Source: Deinococci bacterium
Lineage (GTDB): Bacteria; Deinococcota; Deinococci; Deinococcales; Trueperaceae
DNA length: 64,000 nt
Reading direction: 5' to 3'
NCBI GenBank assembly: GCA_030149325.1
Contig: JASBRS010000071.1
Location: forward strand, 1-64,000
This document shows positions 4,344 through 11,922 of the stretch, one piece after another (position 1 is the first letter of the stretch; each line of letters begins with the position of its first letter). Below the pieces are notes generated by a model, which saw nothing but the letters and a program-made list of their open reading frames with translations, did no database searches and was not told the DNA's origin. The position numbers and the translations under genes are program-made.

Positions 4344-5600
4344 TTGTCAGACGCCGTTGACACCCGCCGCGCCCCGGCGGTCGAGGACGAGACCGAGCTG
4401 CGCTCGGCCCGCTCCCGGGACGCCTTCGCGAAGGCCCTGACGTTCAGCCGAGCCGAAGAGGCCGAGGCGGCGGGCGTTCACCCCTACTTCAAACCGATCG
4501 CCGCTCAGTTCGGCGGGACCGTCCGCGCCAACGGGCGCGACATGGTCATCACCGGTTCCAACGACTACCTCGGGCTGACCCAGGACCCTCGCCTCAAGGC
4601 TGCCGCGCGCGCCGCCCTCGACGACTTCGGTACCAGTTGCACCGGGTCGCGCTTCCTCACCGGCACCCTGACGCTGCACGAGACGCTGGAGACGCGCCTG
4701 GCCGGCTTCCTGAACAAGGAATCGGCGCTGACGTTCAGCGCCGGCTACCTCGGCTGCCTGTCGGTGGTGAGCGCGCTGGCGGGTCGCCACGACATCCTCT
4801 ACTACGACCGCGAGAACCACGCCTCGCTCTACGACGCGGCGCGCCTCTCGTTCGCGACCCTGCGCAAGTACGACCACAACGACCTCGAGCACCTCGACCG
4901 CCTGCTGGCCGCCGATGCCGACAAGCCCGGCGGGCGCATCATCGTGTCGGACGGGGTGTTCTCGATGAGCGGGCACATCGCCGACCTTCCCGGGCTGGTG
5001 GAGCTCAAGCGCCGCTACGGGGCCCGGCTGATCGTCGACGACGCCCACGCCACCGGCGTGCTGGGCGCCAGCGGGCGCGGGAGCGGCGAGCACTTCGGCC
5101 TCGAGGACGACGTCGACGTCATCGTCGGCACCTTCTCGAAGTCGTTCGCCAGCGTCGGCGGCTTCATGGCCGGCGAGCGCAAGGTCGTCGAGTTCGTCAA
5201 GCACCACGCCCGCCCCTTCATCTTCACGGCCGCCCTGCCCGCCATGCAGATGGCCGCCGCCCTGCAGGCGCTGGAGATCATGGAAAGCGAGAGCGAACAC
5301 CGCGAGCGGCTGTGGCGCAACGTCGCGCGCTTCAAGAACGGCATGCGCGACCTCGGCTTCGACACCCTCGGCTCCGAGACGCCCATCGTGCCGGTGCTGA
5401 TCGGCGAGGACGAGCGCGCCCTGGCCTTCTGGAAGGCCCTCTGGGACGCTTCCGTGTTCACCACCCCGGCCTTGCCGCCGGGCGTACCGCCCGGCAAGTC
5501 GATCATCCGGACGAGCGTCAACGCCAACCACACCGATGCCGAGCTCGACCAGTTGCTCTCCGCCTTCGAGACGGTGGGCCGCGCGCTCGGGGTCATCTGA
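4344..5600 (+). CDS. spt: Serine palmitoyltransferase-like PLP enzyme
   Basis: Condenses serine with a fatty acyl thioester to 3-ketosphinganine, the first step of sphingolipid synthesis. 418 residues from TTG 4344, chosen because GGGAGG lies six bases upstream; an earlier GTG at 4329 lies before that site. Alpha-oxoamine synthase fold: GSNDYLGL, FGTSCTGSRFLTGTLTLHETLE (GSRxLxGT is typical of bacterial SPT, where KBL has VRFICGT), NHAS histidine near 159, VDDAH, and GTFSKSFASVGGF with the PLP lysine near 266. HARPFIFTAALP and the C-terminal RTSVNANHT also match SPT. The two following genes resemble ceramide synthase and ceramide reductase. KBL or BioF are less likely: there is no tdh or biotin gene nearby. 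Confidence 0.85.
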   Translation: MSDAVDTRRAPAVEDETELRSARSRDAFAKALTFSRAEEAEAAGVHPYFKPIAAQFGGTVRANGRDMVITGSNDYLGLTQDPRLKAAARAALDDFGTSCTGSRFLTGTLTLHETLETRLAGFLNKESALTFSAGYLGCLSVVSALAGRHDILYYDRENHASLYDAARLSFATLRKYDHNDLEHLDRLLAADADKPGGRIIVSDGVFSMSGHIADLPGLVELKRRYGARLIVDDAHATGVLGASGRGSGEHFGLEDDVDVIVGTFSKSFASVGGFMAGERKVVEFVKHHARPFIFTAALPAMQMAAALQALEIMESESEHRERLWRNVARFKNGMRDLGFDTLGSETPIVPVLIGEDERALAFWKALWDASVFTTPALPPGVPPGKSIIRTSVNANHTDAELDQLLSAFETVGRALGVI

Positions 5601-5625
5601 ATCCCAAGAGCAAGGGGTGAGCCGC

Positions 5626-6738
5626 ATGGTGGAGGTCAAGAAGGTCGCGACGAAACGCGATCTTACCCGCTTCATCGATTACGTCTACGACAAGTACCGG
5701 GGCGACCCGACCTTCGTTCCACCCCTGAGGATGGGCGAGTTCGACAAGCTCAACCCGAAGAAGAACCCCTTCTTCGAGCACGGCCGCATCACGCCCTACC
5801 TGGCCGAGCGCGACGGACGCGTCGTGGGCAGGATCGCCTGCGTCGACAACGATGCCCACAACGAGCAGTTCGGTGACAACCTGGTGTTCTTCGGCTTCTT
5901 CGAGGCCGAGGACGAGGAGGTCGCGGGCGCCCTGTTCGGAGCCGTGGAGGCCGAGGCGCGTGCGCTGGGCCGCAACGCCGTGCGCGGGCCCGCCAACCCC
6001 ACCATGGACGACGGCGCCGGCTTCCAGATCGACGCCTTCGACACCAAGCCGTACATCATGATGCCGCAGAACCCCCCGCAGTACCTGGGCTTCGCCGAGG
6101 GCGCGGGCTACGCCAAGATCAAGGACCTCTACGCCTGGCACATCGACATCGAACACGGCGCCACCGAGCGGCTCGAGCGCATGGCCGATCGCGTCCGCAA
6201 GCGCTACGACATCGTGGTGCGTCCCGCCGAGATGAAGAACTTCAAGCGTGAGGTCGGGCTGCTCAAGCACCTCTACACCGTCGCCTGGGAGGAGAACTGG
6301 GGCCAGGTCCGCGGCACCGACGCCGAGTTCGACTACCTCGCCAACGACCTGAAGATGATCCTGGAGCCCGAGCTGGCGCTGTTCCTGGAGTACAAGGGCG
6401 AGACGGTGGGGCTGTCGATCACCATCCCCGACATCAACCAGGTGCTGGCCAGGACCGGCAACGGCCGCCTCTTCCCCACCGGCATCTTCCACCTGCTCAA
6501 CCGCAAGAAGATCATCACCCAGGGGCGCCTGGCCATCCTCGGGGTGCTGCCGGAGTACCGCCACAAGGGCTTCGAGATCGTGCTCATCGCCGAGTCGGCG
6601 CGGGCCGGCCGGAAGCTCGGCTACACCGGTGGCGAGTGCAGTTGGGTGCTGGAGGACAACGACGCCATGAACCGCGGCATCGAGGCCGCGGGCGCGAAGC
6701 TGTACAAGACCTACCGCATGGTCCAGAAGGCGCTGTGA
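5626..6738 (+). CDS. Long GNAT-fold acyltransferase resembling bacterial ceramide synthase
   Basis: Proposed to N-acylate the sphingoid base made by the upstream SPT. 370 residues from ATG 5626, with a GGGG/GGTGA site just upstream. Visible family features: FVPPL near residue 28, NPKKNPFFEH, VGRIACVDN, the GPANPTMDDGAGFQIDAFDT block at about 115-134, YLGFAEGAGYAKIKDLYAW, and a C-terminal GNAT half with LGVLPEYRHKGFE as the CoA/ACP loop. It is much longer than ordinary GNATs (about 160), as in the family that includes the Caulobacter bCerS and Bacteroidetes homologues next to spt. It lies 25 bases after spt, in the same operon. The assignment rests on remembered family resemblance plus context. 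Confidence 0.7.
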   Translation: MVEVKKVATKRDLTRFIDYVYDKYRGDPTFVPPLRMGEFDKLNPKKNPFFEHGRITPYLAERDGRVVGRIACVDNDAHNEQFGDNLVFFGFFEAEDEEVAGALFGAVEAEARALGRNAVRGPANPTMDDGAGFQIDAFDTKPYIMMPQNPPQYLGFAEGAGYAKIKDLYAWHIDIEHGATERLERMADRVRKRYDIVVRPAEMKNFKREVGLLKHLYTVAWEENWGQVRGTDAEFDYLANDLKMILEPELALFLEYKGETVGLSITIPDINQVLARTGNGRLFPTGIFHLLNRKKIITQGRLAILGVLPEYRHKGFEIVLIAESARAGRKLGYTGGECSWVLEDNDAMNRGIEAAGAKLYKTYRMVQKAL

Positions 6739-7469
6739 GCGTGCTGCGTTCGGTCGGCATCGTCTTCGCCGACCTGGCGCAGCTCTTCGATCGCAAGCAC
6801 GCGCGGCTGTGGTTCCTGCTGACGGCGGCGCTGTTGCTGCAGGCCGGGTTCTGGTACGTCGCCAGTCCGGGCCCCGCCCTGATGGGCTTCCAGCCCCACA
6901 ACCTGACGACCGGCGTGACCACCGTGGCGTGGTCGTTGGCGTTCCTGCTGGTGGCGCCGGCGGGACTCCTCGCCGTCGTCGGGGTCGACCTGCGCCACGT
7001 CGGCCTGCGCCTCGGCGATGCCCGGTTCGGGCTATCGGCGGCGCTCGGCGGCGCCGTCATCGCCGTGCCGCTGATGTACCTGGGCAGCTTCGACAAGGGG
7101 CTCGAGGCCACCTATCCGTGGGCGGGCGCCTGGGTGGGGCACAGCCTCGTCACCATCCTGGCGTGGGCCGCCATCTACGGGCTGTACTACGTGGCCTTCG
7201 AGTTCTTCTACCGCGGCTTCCTGCAGACGGTGGTCGGCGATGCCTGGGGCACGGCCCAGGGCATCTGGGTCCAGACCATGGCGGCCACCCTGATCCACCT
7301 CGGCAAGCCGATGACCGAGCTGCTGGCGGCGTTGCCCGCCAGCCTGCTGTTCGGGGTCCTGGCCGCCCGCAGCCGCTCGGTCCTGTACTCCACCCTGGTG
7401 CACCTCGTCATCGGGCTGTCCACCGACCTGTTCGTCCTCTACCACCAGGGCCTGCTGCTGCACGGCTGA
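6735..7469 (+). CDS. CPBP-family intramembrane protein
   Basis: 244 residues, starting at a GTG that overlaps the stop codon of the preceding acyltransferase (GTGA), so the two are translationally coupled. It shows about seven hydrophobic segments. The CPBP/CAAX (Abi) motifs are present: E-F-F-Y-R (Glu about 156, Arg about 160; the first glutamate of EExxxR is Phe), a second-motif His near 188 in TLIHLGKP, and a third-motif His near 223 in TLVHLVIG. Members of this family are membrane glutamic proteases or have lost activity. Its substrate is unknown. The position inside the spt operon suggests a link to sphingolipid handling, which is inference only. Confidence 0.8.
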   Translation: MSVLRSVGIVFADLAQLFDRKHARLWFLLTAALLLQAGFWYVASPGPALMGFQPHNLTTGVTTVAWSLAFLLVAPAGLLAVVGVDLRHVGLRLGDARFGLSAALGGAVIAVPLMYLGSFDKGLEATYPWAGAWVGHSLVTILAWAAIYGLYYVAFEFFYRGFLQTVVGDAWGTAQGIWVQTMAATLIHLGKPMTELLAALPASLLFGVLAARSRSVLYSTLVHLVIGLSTDLFVLYHQGLLLHG

Positions 7470-7506
7470 GCGCGCGCGGGGCCGCGGCGACCGGCGCGCA
7501 GGCATC

Positions 7507-7525
7507 GGTCGCCGCTCCGGCGACC
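7507..7525 (+). promoter_or_regulatory. Inverted repeat upstream of the cerR-like gene
   Basis: GGTCGCCG (7507-7514) and CGGCGACC (7518-7525) form a perfect eight-base stem with a three-base loop, ending four bases before a TACGCT box. It may terminate or slow transcription from the upstream genes, or serve as an operator. Chance is possible in such GC-rich DNA. Confidence 0.3.
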
Positions 7526-7528
7526 TGG

Positions 7529-7534
7529 TACGCT
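7529..7534 (+). promoter_or_regulatory. Possible -10 element for the cerR-like gene
   Basis: TACGCT, 17 bases before the ATG at 7552. It would give the reductase its own promoter with a leader of about 11 bases. Weak, without a clear -35. Confidence 0.3.
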
Positions 7535-7551
7535 TGGCGACGGCGGTCGTC

Positions 7552-8538
7552 ATGAAGGTTCTCGTTACCGGCGCGCACGGCTTCCTGGGGAGCCACATCA
7601 GCGAACACCTGCTCGCGGCGGGGCACCTCGTCCGCGGCCTGGTGACGCCCTGGGGCGAGCTGGGCAACCTCGCCGGCGTGGCCGAGGCCGAGGGGCTCGA
7701 GCTGCGCCGCGCCGACCTCAGCCAGGAAGGCGACCTGGAGGGCCTGTGCGACGGCGTCGACGCCGTGGTGCACGCCGCCGCCCGCGTCGCCGACTGGGGC
7801 CCGTGGGACGCCTTCTACCGCACCAACGTGGTCGGCACGCGGCAGCTCCTGCGCTCGGCCTCCGACGCCGGCGTCCGCCGCTTCCTGTTCATCTCCAGCG
7901 TGGCCGTGCACCGCTACCGCGGCTTCCGCAACGCCGATCCGCGCTCGGTACCGCGCGACAACCTGCGCGACGCCTACGCCCACTCCAAGATCATGGCCGA
8001 GGACCTGGTGCTCGAGGCCCCGGACATCGAGCCGGTCATCGTGCGGCCCGGGCTGTGGCCGTTCGGTCCCCGCGACCCCAACTTCCGGCGGGTGGCCCGC
8101 GCGCTCGAGCAGGGCCTGCTGCCGCTGGTGGGTCGCGGCGATCGCGTCATCAACACCGCCTACGCCGAGAACCTGGCGCTGGGCGTGCGCCTGGCGCTGG
8201 AGCGTCCCGAGGCCGCGCATCGCGTCTACGTCATCGCCGACGAGGGCATGCCGAGCTGGCGCGAGGTGCTCGGGGAGCTGGCGCGGCTGTTGGGCGAGCG
8301 CCCGCCGAGGCTGCACCTCCCCGGCACCCCCACGCGCGCGCTGGCGAGCGGCGTGGAGGCCACCTGGGGAGCGCTGTTCCCCCGCAACGAACCGCCCATG
8401 ACGCGCTACCGGGCCAGCCTGATGACCCACGACGTGCACTTCAGCATCCGCCACGCCGTCGAGGAGCTCGGCTTCGAGCCCGCGGTGTCATGGCGCGAGG
8501 GCCTCCGGCGTACCGTCGGGGCCCTCTCCCCCGCCTGA
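7552..8538 (+). CDS. NAD(P)-dependent epimerase/reductase resembling ceramide reductase CerR
   Basis: Extended short-chain dehydrogenase of 328 residues. The dinucleotide loop TGAHGFLGSH is at residues 6-15, the NVVGT helix follows, the catalytic serine pair is near 115, and YAHSK places Tyr142 and Lys146. The C-terminal half (RPGLWPFGPRD, then a substrate domain) resembles the 3-beta-hydroxysteroid dehydrogenase-like group. In Caulobacter a protein of this class, CerR, reduces the 3-keto group of ceramide; together with the spt and GNAT genes upstream, the same role is proposed here. Alternatively it could modify a nucleotide sugar for the glycosyltransferases downstream. It lies 82 bases after the CPBP gene. 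Confidence 0.75.
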   Translation: MKVLVTGAHGFLGSHISEHLLAAGHLVRGLVTPWGELGNLAGVAEAEGLELRRADLSQEGDLEGLCDGVDAVVHAAARVADWGPWDAFYRTNVVGTRQLLRSASDAGVRRFLFISSVAVHRYRGFRNADPRSVPRDNLRDAYAHSKIMAEDLVLEAPDIEPVIVRPGLWPFGPRDPNFRRVARALEQGLLPLVGRGDRVINTAYAENLALGVRLALERPEAAHRVYVIADEGMPSWREVLGELARLLGERPPRLHLPGTPTRALASGVEATWGALFPRNEPPMTRYRASLMTHDVHFSIRHAVEELGFEPAVSWREGLRRTVGALSPA

Positions 8539-8628: not shown

Positions 8629-9729
8629 ATGGCCGACGGCTTCGACTACCTCATCGTCGGTGCGGGCTTCGCCGGCGCCGTCCTCGCCGAGCGGCTCGCC
8701 AGCCAGCGCAACCGAAGGGTCCTGCTGGTGGAGCGCCGCGACCACATCGCCGGCAACGCCTACGACGAGTACGACGACAACGGCGTGCTGGTGCACCGCT
8801 ACGGACCCCACATCTTCCACACCAACGCACGCTCGGTGTTCGACTACCTCTCGCAGTTCACCGCCTGGCGCCCCTACCAGCACCGCGTCCGCGCCCTCGT
8901 CGACGGCCGACTGGTGCCCATCCCCATCAACCTCGACACCGTCAACACGCTCTACAACCTCGACCTGTCGAGCGACGAGCTGGAGGCGTTCTTCGCCGCC
9001 CGCGCCGAGAAGCGCGAGCGCATCGAGACCTCCGAGGACGTGGTGGTGGCGCGCGTCGGGCGTGAGCTGTTCGAGAAGTTCTTCCGGGGTTACACGCGCA
9101 AGCAGTGGGGGCTCGAGCCCAAGGAGCTCGACGCCACCGTCACGGCCCGCGTGCCGGTCCGCACCAACCGCGACGATCGCTACTTCACCGACGTCTACCA
9201 GGCCATGCCGCTGCATGGCTACACCGCCATGTTCCGGCGCATGCTGGCCCACCCCAACATCAAGGTGATGCTGCAGACGGACTACCGCGAGGTGGCCGAG
9301 CTCGTCCCCCACAAGCACCTGATCTACACCGGGCCGATCGACGAGTACTTCGGTCACAGCCTCGGGCCCCTGCCCTACCGCTCGCTGGAGTTCGAGTTCG
9401 TGACCCACGACGAAGCCCAGGTGCAGGAGACGGGGACCATCAACTACCCCAACGACCACGCCTACACCCGGCGCACCGAGATGAAGCACCTGACGGGCCA
9501 GAAGCACGACCGGTCGGTGCTCGTCTACGAGTACCCGCGCGCCGAGGGCGACCCCTACTACCCCGTGCCCCGCCCGGAGAACCGCGCGCTCTACGAGGCC
9601 TACGCCGCCAAGGCCGCCGAGCTCGAGCACGTCACCTTCGTCGGCCGCCTGGGCACCTACCGCTACTACAACATGGACCAGGTCGTCGCCCAGGCCCTGA
9701 AGACGTTCGAGACGCTACCGGACGTGTGA
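8629..9729 (+). CDS. glf: UDP-galactopyranose mutase
   Basis: Flavoenzyme that interconverts UDP-galactopyranose and UDP-galactofuranose, the donor for galactofuranose in glycans and glycolipids. 366 residues, usual length. The FAD-binding loop GAGFAGAVLAERLA is near residues 11-24, followed by VERRDHIAGNAYDEYD and GPHIFHTN (about 63-70). RGYTRKQWG, RYFTDVYQAMP and FVGRLGTYRYYNMDQ at the C-terminus are all characteristic. The start is the ATG eight bases after TAGGAT. It heads a transcription unit with a glycosyltransferase and a flippase-like protein, so a galactofuranose-containing envelope lipid is likely. Confidence 0.95.
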   Translation: MADGFDYLIVGAGFAGAVLAERLASQRNRRVLLVERRDHIAGNAYDEYDDNGVLVHRYGPHIFHTNARSVFDYLSQFTAWRPYQHRVRALVDGRLVPIPINLDTVNTLYNLDLSSDELEAFFAARAEKRERIETSEDVVVARVGRELFEKFFRGYTRKQWGLEPKELDATVTARVPVRTNRDDRYFTDVYQAMPLHGYTAMFRRMLAHPNIKVMLQTDYREVAELVPHKHLIYTGPIDEYFGHSLGPLPYRSLEFEFVTHDEAQVQETGTINYPNDHAYTRRTEMKHLTGQKHDRSVLVYEYPRAEGDPYYPVPRPENRALYEAYAAKAAELEHVTFVGRLGTYRYYNMDQVVAQALKTFETLPDV

Positions 9730-9755: not shown

Positions 9756-10937
9756 ATGAACCCCACCCCCACGCGGCCCCGCCTCCTCATCGCCATGATC
9801 GAGGCCGGCGGCGGGCACCGTGCCCCCTCGCTGGCGATCCAGGCCGCGCTCGAGCGCCGCTACCCCGGACGCTTCGAGGTCGACGTGCTCGACATCATGC
9901 GGCACACCGGCGACGAGCGCCTCGACGACCGCCACAAGGCGTCGTGGCGGTGGATGCTGGCGCATCCGCGGGTGACGTTCTGGCTGCAGGGCCTGATCGA
10001 CCGCGGGCTGCCGGTGGCCTGGACGCGGTGGGGCCAACGCCGCCTCCTCGGCGCCTTCAGCCGTCACCTGGCCGACTTCGTGCGCCGCGGCCGCTACGAC
10101 CTGGTCTTGGCCGTCCACTTCATGCCGCTCCAGGCGGCCGCCATGGCGCGGCGCCGGGGCGCGTGGCAGGTCCCGCTGATCGGGCTCGACACCGATCCCT
10201 TCGACGGGCACGCCCTGTGGGCGGTTCCCGAGGTCGACGAGATGATCGTCGCCAGCGAGGAGGCGGCGGCGCTGCTGGCCGCCAAGGGGGTGCCCAGGTC
10301 GCGGCTGCGCAGGTTCGGCTACCCGCTGGGGCTGGCCTTCGTCGACGCCGCCGGTGCCGACGCGCGCGAACAGACGGCGGCCCGCGCCCGCCTGGGGCTC
10401 GAGCCAGACGCCCTGACCGTGCTGCACACCCCCGGCGGCGAGGGCATCGGCGGCGACGTCGAGGGCACCGTGCGCGCCGTGCTGGAGGCCGGCCTCGACC
10501 TGCAGTACGTCGTCATCGCGGGCCGCAACGAGGGCCTGCGCCAACGCCTCACGCAGCTCGCGGCCGCCCACCCCAGCAGCGCCACGCGCCTGCGGGTCGA
10601 GGGGTTCACCCGCGCCATGGCCGATTGGATCGCCGCCAGCGACGTGGTGCTGGCCAAGGCCGGTGCCTCCTCCACCCTGGAGGCGCTGGCGTTGGGGACG
10701 CCGGTGTTCCACACCAGCTACGTCGCGCCCAACGAGAAGCGCAACCTCGACTTCTGCGCTCGGCACGGTATCGGTGGCTACGTCCCCACGCCGGCGGCGG
10801 TGGTGGCGCTGCTCGAGCCCCTGACCCGCGACCGAGCCCCCCTGCGGGCCTGGCGCGGGGCGATCGAGGCGCTCGACTTCGAGCCGGGCACGCTGGCCAT
10901 CGCCGACCACCTGGCGGAGCTGCTGGAGGCGAGATGA
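9756..10937 (+). CDS. MGDG-synthase/UgtP-like glycolipid glycosyltransferase
   Basis: 393 residues. N-terminal GGGHRAPSLAIQAAL matches the membrane-binding loop of the monogalactosyldiacylglycerol synthase family, which transfers a sugar to a lipid acceptor. The C-terminal half is a GT28 donor domain with FTRAMADWIAASDVVLAKAGASSTLEAL and GTPVFHTSYV. The lipid acceptor could be diacylglycerol or, given the spt genes upstream, a ceramide. Two starts are possible: ATG 9756, used here, and GTG 9726, which overlaps the glf stop (GTGA) and would add ten residues. Co-transcribed with glf and the next gene, whose ATG overlaps this stop. Confidence 0.85.
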   Translation: MNPTPTRPRLLIAMIEAGGGHRAPSLAIQAALERRYPGRFEVDVLDIMRHTGDERLDDRHKASWRWMLAHPRVTFWLQGLIDRGLPVAWTRWGQRRLLGAFSRHLADFVRRGRYDLVLAVHFMPLQAAAMARRRGAWQVPLIGLDTDPFDGHALWAVPEVDEMIVASEEAAALLAAKGVPRSRLRRFGYPLGLAFVDAAGADAREQTAARARLGLEPDALTVLHTPGGEGIGGDVEGTVRAVLEAGLDLQYVVIAGRNEGLRQRLTQLAAAHPSSATRLRVEGFTRAMADWIAASDVVLAKAGASSTLEALALGTPVFHTSYVAPNEKRNLDFCARHGIGGYVPTPAAVVALLEPLTRDRAPLRAWRGAIEALDFEPGTLAIADHLAELLEAR

Positions 10938-11922
10938 ACCGCACGGTCCTCCGGTCGCTGATCGTGTCGATGCTGCTGAGCACGCTGGGTCTGGCGTGGG
11001 TGGTGTTCCGCGTCGGGAAGGTCCAGGACCTGGGGATCATCCGGGAGCTGCCGCTGCGCTACGCGCTGGCGGCGCTCGGCGGTTTGCTGGGCGCGTTCCT
11101 GATGGCGGCGCTGCGGCTGCGGGTGCTGTGCGGCCGTCTGGGGCACCGCCTGCAGCTCCACCACGCCTTGCGCGCGCACATCCTGGGGATGTTCAGCGCC
11201 ACCGTCACGCCCGGCGGCAGCGGCTCCACGCCCGCCCTGGCGCTTGCGCTGCAGGGGCAGAGGTTGCCCCCGGGGACGGCCTGGGCCGTGGGTGTGGCCG
11301 TCTTCGGGACCGACGCGCTGTTCCATACCTGGGGGCTGCCGATCTCGCTGGGGCTGCTGTACGCGCTGGGTCTCTACCCCCACACGCCGGGCTGGCTGGC
11401 GCTCGGCGGGCTGACGGTGGTGCTGTCGGCGGCGGTGGCGTACCTGGTGCAGTTCCGGCTGGCCTGGCTCGAGCCCATCGCCCGCTGGCTGCTGCGCGGC
11501 GTGCTGGTGCGTTGGCGCCGACGCGGGTTGCGCTTCGTGGAGACGATGCTGGAGGCGAACCGGCTGTTCAACAACGCGCCCGCCCGCTTCCACCTGGCGC
11601 TGCAGGCGGTGACGGCGGCGTCGTGGATCAGCTTCTTCAGCATCCTGTACTTCCTGGCCCGCGGGCTGGGGCTGCAGGTGTCGCTGCCGGCCATCGAGGC
11701 GGCACAGATGGTGGTCACGGTGATGTCGACCTTCGTGCCCACCCGGGCGGAAGCGGCTTCTTCGAGCTGGGGATCTCCTACGTGCTCATCGCGCGCGGCG
11801 GCGGCAACGCGGTGCCGGGCGTGGTGCTGTTGTGGCGCCTGGTGACCTTCTACTCGATCTTCCTGCTCGGCCCGCTGCTGGGCGGCTACCTCGTGACCCG
11901 CCGCATCCAGAGCGCCGACTGA
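10934..11922 (+). pseudogene. Flippase-like (UPF0104/AglD) membrane protein, frameshifted
   Basis: The intact protein would have 329 residues and about eight membrane segments, of the lysylphosphatidylglycerol-synthase transmembrane family linked to lipid or glycolipid translocation. The family motif TPGGSG occurs twice: near residue 93 (VTPGGSGST) and again where PTPGGSGFFELG is expected. The reading frame breaks at 11742-11744: CCCACCCGGGCGG lacks one C, so the first frame runs on to an unrelated end at 11845. The remaining 60 residues (GGSGFFELGISYVLIARGGG...) continue in the next frame to 11922. A single missing C in a C-rich stretch may be an assembly error. ATG 10934 overlaps the upstream stop (ATGA). 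Confidence 0.8.

Follow-up and report, generated by a model that had tools for sequence, protein, structure and literature searches.

Gene Content of the Locus

The window, which is the whole stretch of 64,000 nucleotides analysed, is part of a 3.04-Mb draft genome that consists of 102 contigs and is 97% complete. The preliminary description of this DNA had attributed it to a Deinococcota-type genome, which is borne out by its family, Trueperaceae, that includes Truepera radiovictrix (genome G108, whose identity is almost certain). The host genome gives no match for 16S rRNA, and its phylum was assigned through its relatedness to G108. Four genes had been placed at positions 4344–8538 of the forward strand, and all four are found intact and co-directional. 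They and the three genes following them are listed below.

4344..5600, + strand: serine palmitoyltransferase (SPT)-type alpha-oxoamine synthase, 418 amino acids, TTG start; SPT clade, support 100/97
5626..6738, + strand: tandem GNAT acyltransferase of the bacterial ceramide synthase (bCerS)/YghO family, 370 amino acids; assigned by tree, alignment and structure model
6735..7469, + strand: CPBP/Rce1-like membrane protein, GTG start; PF02517, 35 bits
7552..8538, + strand: extended SDR at the CerR position, OleD/HpnA-like, in a non-CerR clade; profiles, tree and AU test
8629..9729, + strand: UDP-galactopyranose mutase; TIGR00031, 394 bits, above the cut-off
9756..10937, + strand: GT28/MGDG-synthase-like glycosyltransferase; PF06925, 37 bits
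10934..11922, + strand: flippase-like gene (TIGR00374) with a broken frame, its start overlapping the GT28 stop

The synthase and GNAT genes are separated by 25 bases, and the stop of the GNAT gene is overlapped by the GTG start of the CPBP gene. All motifs previously described in the synthase and the SDR are present (i.e., GSRFLTGT, GTFSKS, HARPFIFTAALP, TGAHGFLG and Y-x3-K), and full-length profile and PDB matches, along with the conservation of the synthase-GNAT pair in relatives, put the operon well beyond chance. The frame of the flippase-like gene is broken by a -1/+2 shift at a C/G run near position 11745 (window 11720–11770), which is either an assembly error or a true pseudogene; flippase-like neighbours are intact at loci L041 and L053.

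The Synthase Belongs to the SPT Clade

Among solved structures, the SPT of Sphingobacterium multivorum (PDB 8guh/3a2b) is the closest relative of the synthase (351 bits) and has its active-site motifs in common with it, while the matches to the Thermus alpha-oxoamine synthase (293 bits), E. coli KBL (250 bits) and BioF (209 bits or less) are weaker. The preliminary description had proposed an SPT-type synthase and had named a placement with KBL or BioF as the contrary outcome. In a tree of 52 proteins, the synthase is found in a clade (100/97) with the crystallised SPTs and the SPT-like synthases of Bacteroidota, Roseomonas and Diaphorobacter, and KBL, BioF and the Thermus enzyme are all apart from this clade. 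In contrast to the Sphingobacterium enzyme, the Trueperaceae synthases form a separate, well-supported clade of their own, and the window synthase scores under the NCBIfam SPT cut-offs: the SPT profiles are top-ranked for it, yet reach 423 bits against a cut-off of 640 and 385 bits against one of 500. Because these equivalog models cover the Bacteroidota-type and proteobacterial subgroups, the synthase is referred to here as a member of the SPT clade and not as an NCBIfam equivalog member.

A plain KBL, BioF or Thermus-type alpha-oxoamine synthase amid unrelated neighbours is a very improbable reading of this gene. Although the profiles for BioF and glycine C-acetyltransferase give high scores as well (383 and 355 bits, respectively), the SPT profiles score highest, unions with KBL (AU p 0.0015) and with the Thermus synthase (AU p 0.0017) are both rejected, the host genome possesses a separate KBL (L098), and the GNAT gene is kept beside SPT in several phyla. 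The AU tests covered the KBL and Thermus unions; BioF lies outside the SPT clade in the tree.

The active site is of the SPT type, with the catalytic Lys in GTFSKS, the stacking His, the PLP-binding Asp/His and the Arg. The residues that contact serine in the Sphingobacterium SPT, Asn52, Gly80 and Ser243 (PMC10196870), are kept in the window synthase. SulA/cysteate acyl-ACP transferase (PMC9304779) has its superfamily and fold in common with the synthase, but the Lys281 (SulA numbering) that is found in cysteate (sulfonolipid) enzymes (PMC9304779) is replaced by Ala in the window, and a cysteate-type synthase is therefore disfavoured. More broadly, the synthase might take alanine, glycine or cysteate instead of serine and so give rise to a 1-deoxyceramide or a sulfonolipid analogue, given that bacterial SPT can accept alanine and glycine, if inefficiently (PMC10196870), that 1-deoxyceramides were found in a Black Sea survey (PMC11334938), and that serine versus alanine is not settled by sequence alone. 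We regard this as improbable, since the Ala at the Lys281 position and the serine-contacting residues argue against cysteate and nothing in the analysis favours alanine or glycine.

The GNAT Protein Belongs to the Bacterial Ceramide Synthase/YghO Family

None of the Pfam and NCBIfam models reaches its cut-off for the GNAT protein, and a sequence search of the PDB with this protein gives no match; consequently, a structure model was used. The AlphaFold model (pLDDT 89.8) displays a tandem-GNAT fold and matches tandem GNATs in Foldseek with an E value of 6e-13. The protein is 36% identical, over its full length, to the GNATs of Roseomonas and Diaphorobacter clusters that also hold ACP, SPT, LptF/LptG permeases and a nucleotidyltransferase, a gene content that resembles that of the phosphosphingolipid cluster of Caulobacter (PMC11324152). 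An SPT-like gene is also present at 52 of the 83 loci, mainly proteobacterial, that were found to carry this GNAT type in a scan with a proteobacterial GNAT alignment. The tree, the alignment and these loci thus uphold, at the level of the family, the earlier assignment of the protein to the bCerS family. E. coli YghO is a member of the same family (33% identity to the window protein), so membership by itself is no proof of ceramide synthesis; in strain K-12, YghO has no SPT adjoining it. In the GNAT tree, sampled without Caulobacter bCerS, the Trueperaceae proteins form a clade of their own, and the deep branches give no order toward bCerS or YghO.

In E. coli K-12, yghO-yghQ-yghR-yghS are found beside an IS5 element and without SPT (L039 4044–9824), and these genes may be a remnant of a sphingolipid-type cluster. 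On a plasmid of Pseudomonas veronii (L080 479–11117), the neighbours of YghO are yghS/yghR, an SPT-like synthase gene, a gene the size of an ACP and an SDR of the CerR type.

Conservation of the Operon among Relatives

The four-gene operon is also found in T. radiovictrix, where a UDP-galactopyranose mutase gene lies beside it as well. The GNAT gene adjoins the synthase gene, at distances of 6–135 bases, in 21 of the 22 genomes of the family that have a complete SPT; the sole exception is the fragmented genome G076, in which the two are on different contigs. Among 19 related genomes and the Rubrobacter plasmid with the synthase-GNAT pair, the CPBP gene and an SDR follow in most, and the GT28 gene after the SDR is kept in most relatives that possess the SDR type of the window. 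GNAT homologues, including a few distant paralogues, occur in 27 of the 39 family genomes. Four genomes of a second family in the order (f3) have both SPT and GNAT, unlinked. In this family of Deinococcota, SPT is found near short classical-type SDRs (L088 6592–7278; L090 6610–7350 and 9546–10250), which are possibly yet another reductase type.

Trios of synthase, GNAT and SDR occur in Trueperaceae, Rubrobacter and Streptomyces. On the Streptomyces sp. NBC_01001 plasmid (L074 4763–9289), the SPT, GNAT and SDR genes are tightly packed, and a condensation-domain protein is encoded after them. On the Rubrobacter radiotolerans plasmid (NZ_CP007515; L071 10707–16299), the adjacent SPT and GNAT are 67.5% and 57% identical, respectively, to those of the window, but the cluster, unlike that of the window, contains a CerR-type SDR and an LTA synthase family gene and is without CPBP. 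R. radiotolerans is an actinobacterium, and its plasmid-borne ceramide-type genes are close to the Trueperaceae versions. The plasmid SPT groups with those of Trueperaceae, and a transfer from Trueperaceae to the plasmid gives an AU p of 0.206. Judged from these sequences, the kinship between the plasmid and Trueperaceae operons is clear, and the test gives no direction of transfer.

A Different SDR Occupies the CerR Position

The preliminary description had called the SDR of the window CerR type. It is indeed an extended SDR with TGAHGFLG and YAHSK motifs and a PF01370 match of 99 bits, but it falls outside the CerR clade. Proteobacterial CerR was identified by synteny as the SDR just upstream of acpR-spt, as in Caulobacter (PMC11324152). 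The CerR clade (100/95) comprises the CerR of Pseudomonadota and the SPT/GNAT-adjoining SDRs of Streptomyces, Nonomuraea, Rubrobacter, Aureispira, Pseudomonas and some Trueperaceae; it excludes the clade of the window SDR (100/99), and the union of the two, i.e., the window SDR as a CerR orthologue, is rejected (AU p 0.0045). The best curated profile for the window SDR is OleD (NF042422), at 157 bits where the cut-off is 580, and HpnA is second. As OleD is named a 2-alkyl-3-oxoalkanoate reductase and, by this model name, reduces a long-chain 3-keto group, it is chemically plausible that a 3-ketoceramide is reduced; ole genes are absent from beside the window SDR.

At the thresholds used, the CerR type and the window type of SDR are never found together in one Trueperaceae genome, as would be expected if both do the same job. 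On the SPT tree at least three switches between the SDR types are counted, a soft number in view of several weak forks. The CPBP gene accompanies only the window-type SDR. An E-x3-R motif and two His residues are invariant in nine CPBP orthologues, so the protein might act as a membrane protease or serve as a scaffold. One family genome, G084, has the SPT-GNAT pair and no recognised SDR of either type.

The same region could also be understood as two pathways, in which a 3-keto long-chain base is formed by the synthase and N-acylated by the GNAT protein, the CPBP protein, SDR and GT28 belong to a neighbouring glycolipid pathway (e.g., with an HpnA-like sugar step), and the reduction takes place elsewhere or not at all. 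The position of the SDR outside the CerR clade and HpnA as its second-best profile are consistent with this, as are two genomes: G074 has CPBP, SDR, GT28 and mutase genes at a locus apart from SPT-GNAT, and G085 retains a degenerate window-type SDR and GT28 at the same site where SPT, GNAT and CPBP are absent, from which it follows that the window-type SDR may serve another pathway. Two separate pathways nevertheless appear unlikely to us, because other Trueperaceae have a CerR-type SDR at this point of the operon and none of the genomes combines the two types.

Proposed Pathway

The synthase and the GNAT protein are placed by sequence in the SPT clade and the bCerS/YghO family, the operon is conserved among relatives, and a non-CerR SDR occupies the CerR position. 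We propose that the operon probably makes a ceramide backbone, in which the usual reductase is replaced by an SDR of another subfamily. The synthase would condense serine and a fatty acyl thioester to form 3-ketosphinganine, the tandem-GNAT protein would put a second acyl chain on the amine, and the SDR, although of a different subfamily, would do the job of CerR by reducing the 3-keto group. The CPBP membrane protein would be an accessory that travels with the window-type SDR. Addition of a sugar and transport of the lipid may be the task of the downstream GT28 glycosyltransferase, the UDP-galactopyranose mutase and the flippase-like protein. We infer from the genes each of these reactions and the sequence in which they occur, as well as the acyl donor, the substrate of the SDR and the glycosylation.

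The proposed pathway has the SPT and GNAT N-acyltransferase families, plus an SDR, in common with that of Caulobacter crescentus (spt, acpR, cerR, aasR and cerS/bcerS; PMC11324152, PMC11087976). It differs from the latter in that the genes form one operon, neither acpR nor aasR lies beside SPT, the SDR is of another subfamily, a CPBP protein is added and GT28 is found downstream. In Caulobacter, the periplasmic location of CerR and its electron source are unresolved (PMC11087976).

Lipid A Genes in Trueperaceae

The lineage had been assumed to be without LPS, an assumption that is contradicted for this family by the presence of lpxC, lpxA and lpxD. LpxC is found in 35 of the 39 family genomes, including the host genome and T. 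radiovictrix, and the control genomes of Thermus composti and Deinobacterium chartae are LpxC-negative. The host genome scores 254 bits for LpxA and 346 bits for LpxD, both over the curated cut-offs. On contig C79 of the host (L199 1174–5252), LpxC and a GnnA-like Gfo/Idh gene lie between LpxA and LpxD, with an LpxB-like sequence nearby. T. radiovictrix (L200 2088–11266) has LpxA, LpxC, LpxD, Gfo/Idh and LpxB-like genes, accompanied by FabZ and an ABC transporter resembling MsbA. LpxK is found in none of the 39 family genomes, and LptD was not detected in the host genome. With this gene complement, Trueperaceae might make a molecule resembling lipid A, perhaps one that lacks the 4'-phosphate. 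The presence of lpx genes weakens the idea that sphingolipids substitute for LPS in this lineage.

Implications

The preliminary description knew of no sphingolipid from Deinococcota, and in agreement with this we found no account of such lipids or of the corresponding genes for this phylum in the open-access literature searched. According to the main text of the Black Sea survey, predicted sphingolipid producers are found in 40 phyla, and that text has no mention of "Deinococc-" (PMC11334938). The pathway predicted here appears to be a known one, ceramide synthesis, whose new part is the replacement of CerR by another SDR and a CPBP protein. We also suggest, more tentatively, that the CerR step was replaced in Trueperaceae, in at least three switches, by a cassette of CPBP and an unrelated SDR tied to GT28, such that reduction and glycosylation of the ceramide may follow a route that would be new compared with those elsewhere; its products would be the first sphingolipids of Deinococcota and would occur beside lipid A-type genes.

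With these results, a Deinococcota family that has a cultured type strain joins the predicted makers of ceramide, and the existence of that strain makes the claim directly testable. The window SDR would offer a natural replacement of CerR, and lpx genes occur together with putative ceramide genes in a lineage that had been taken to lack lipid A.
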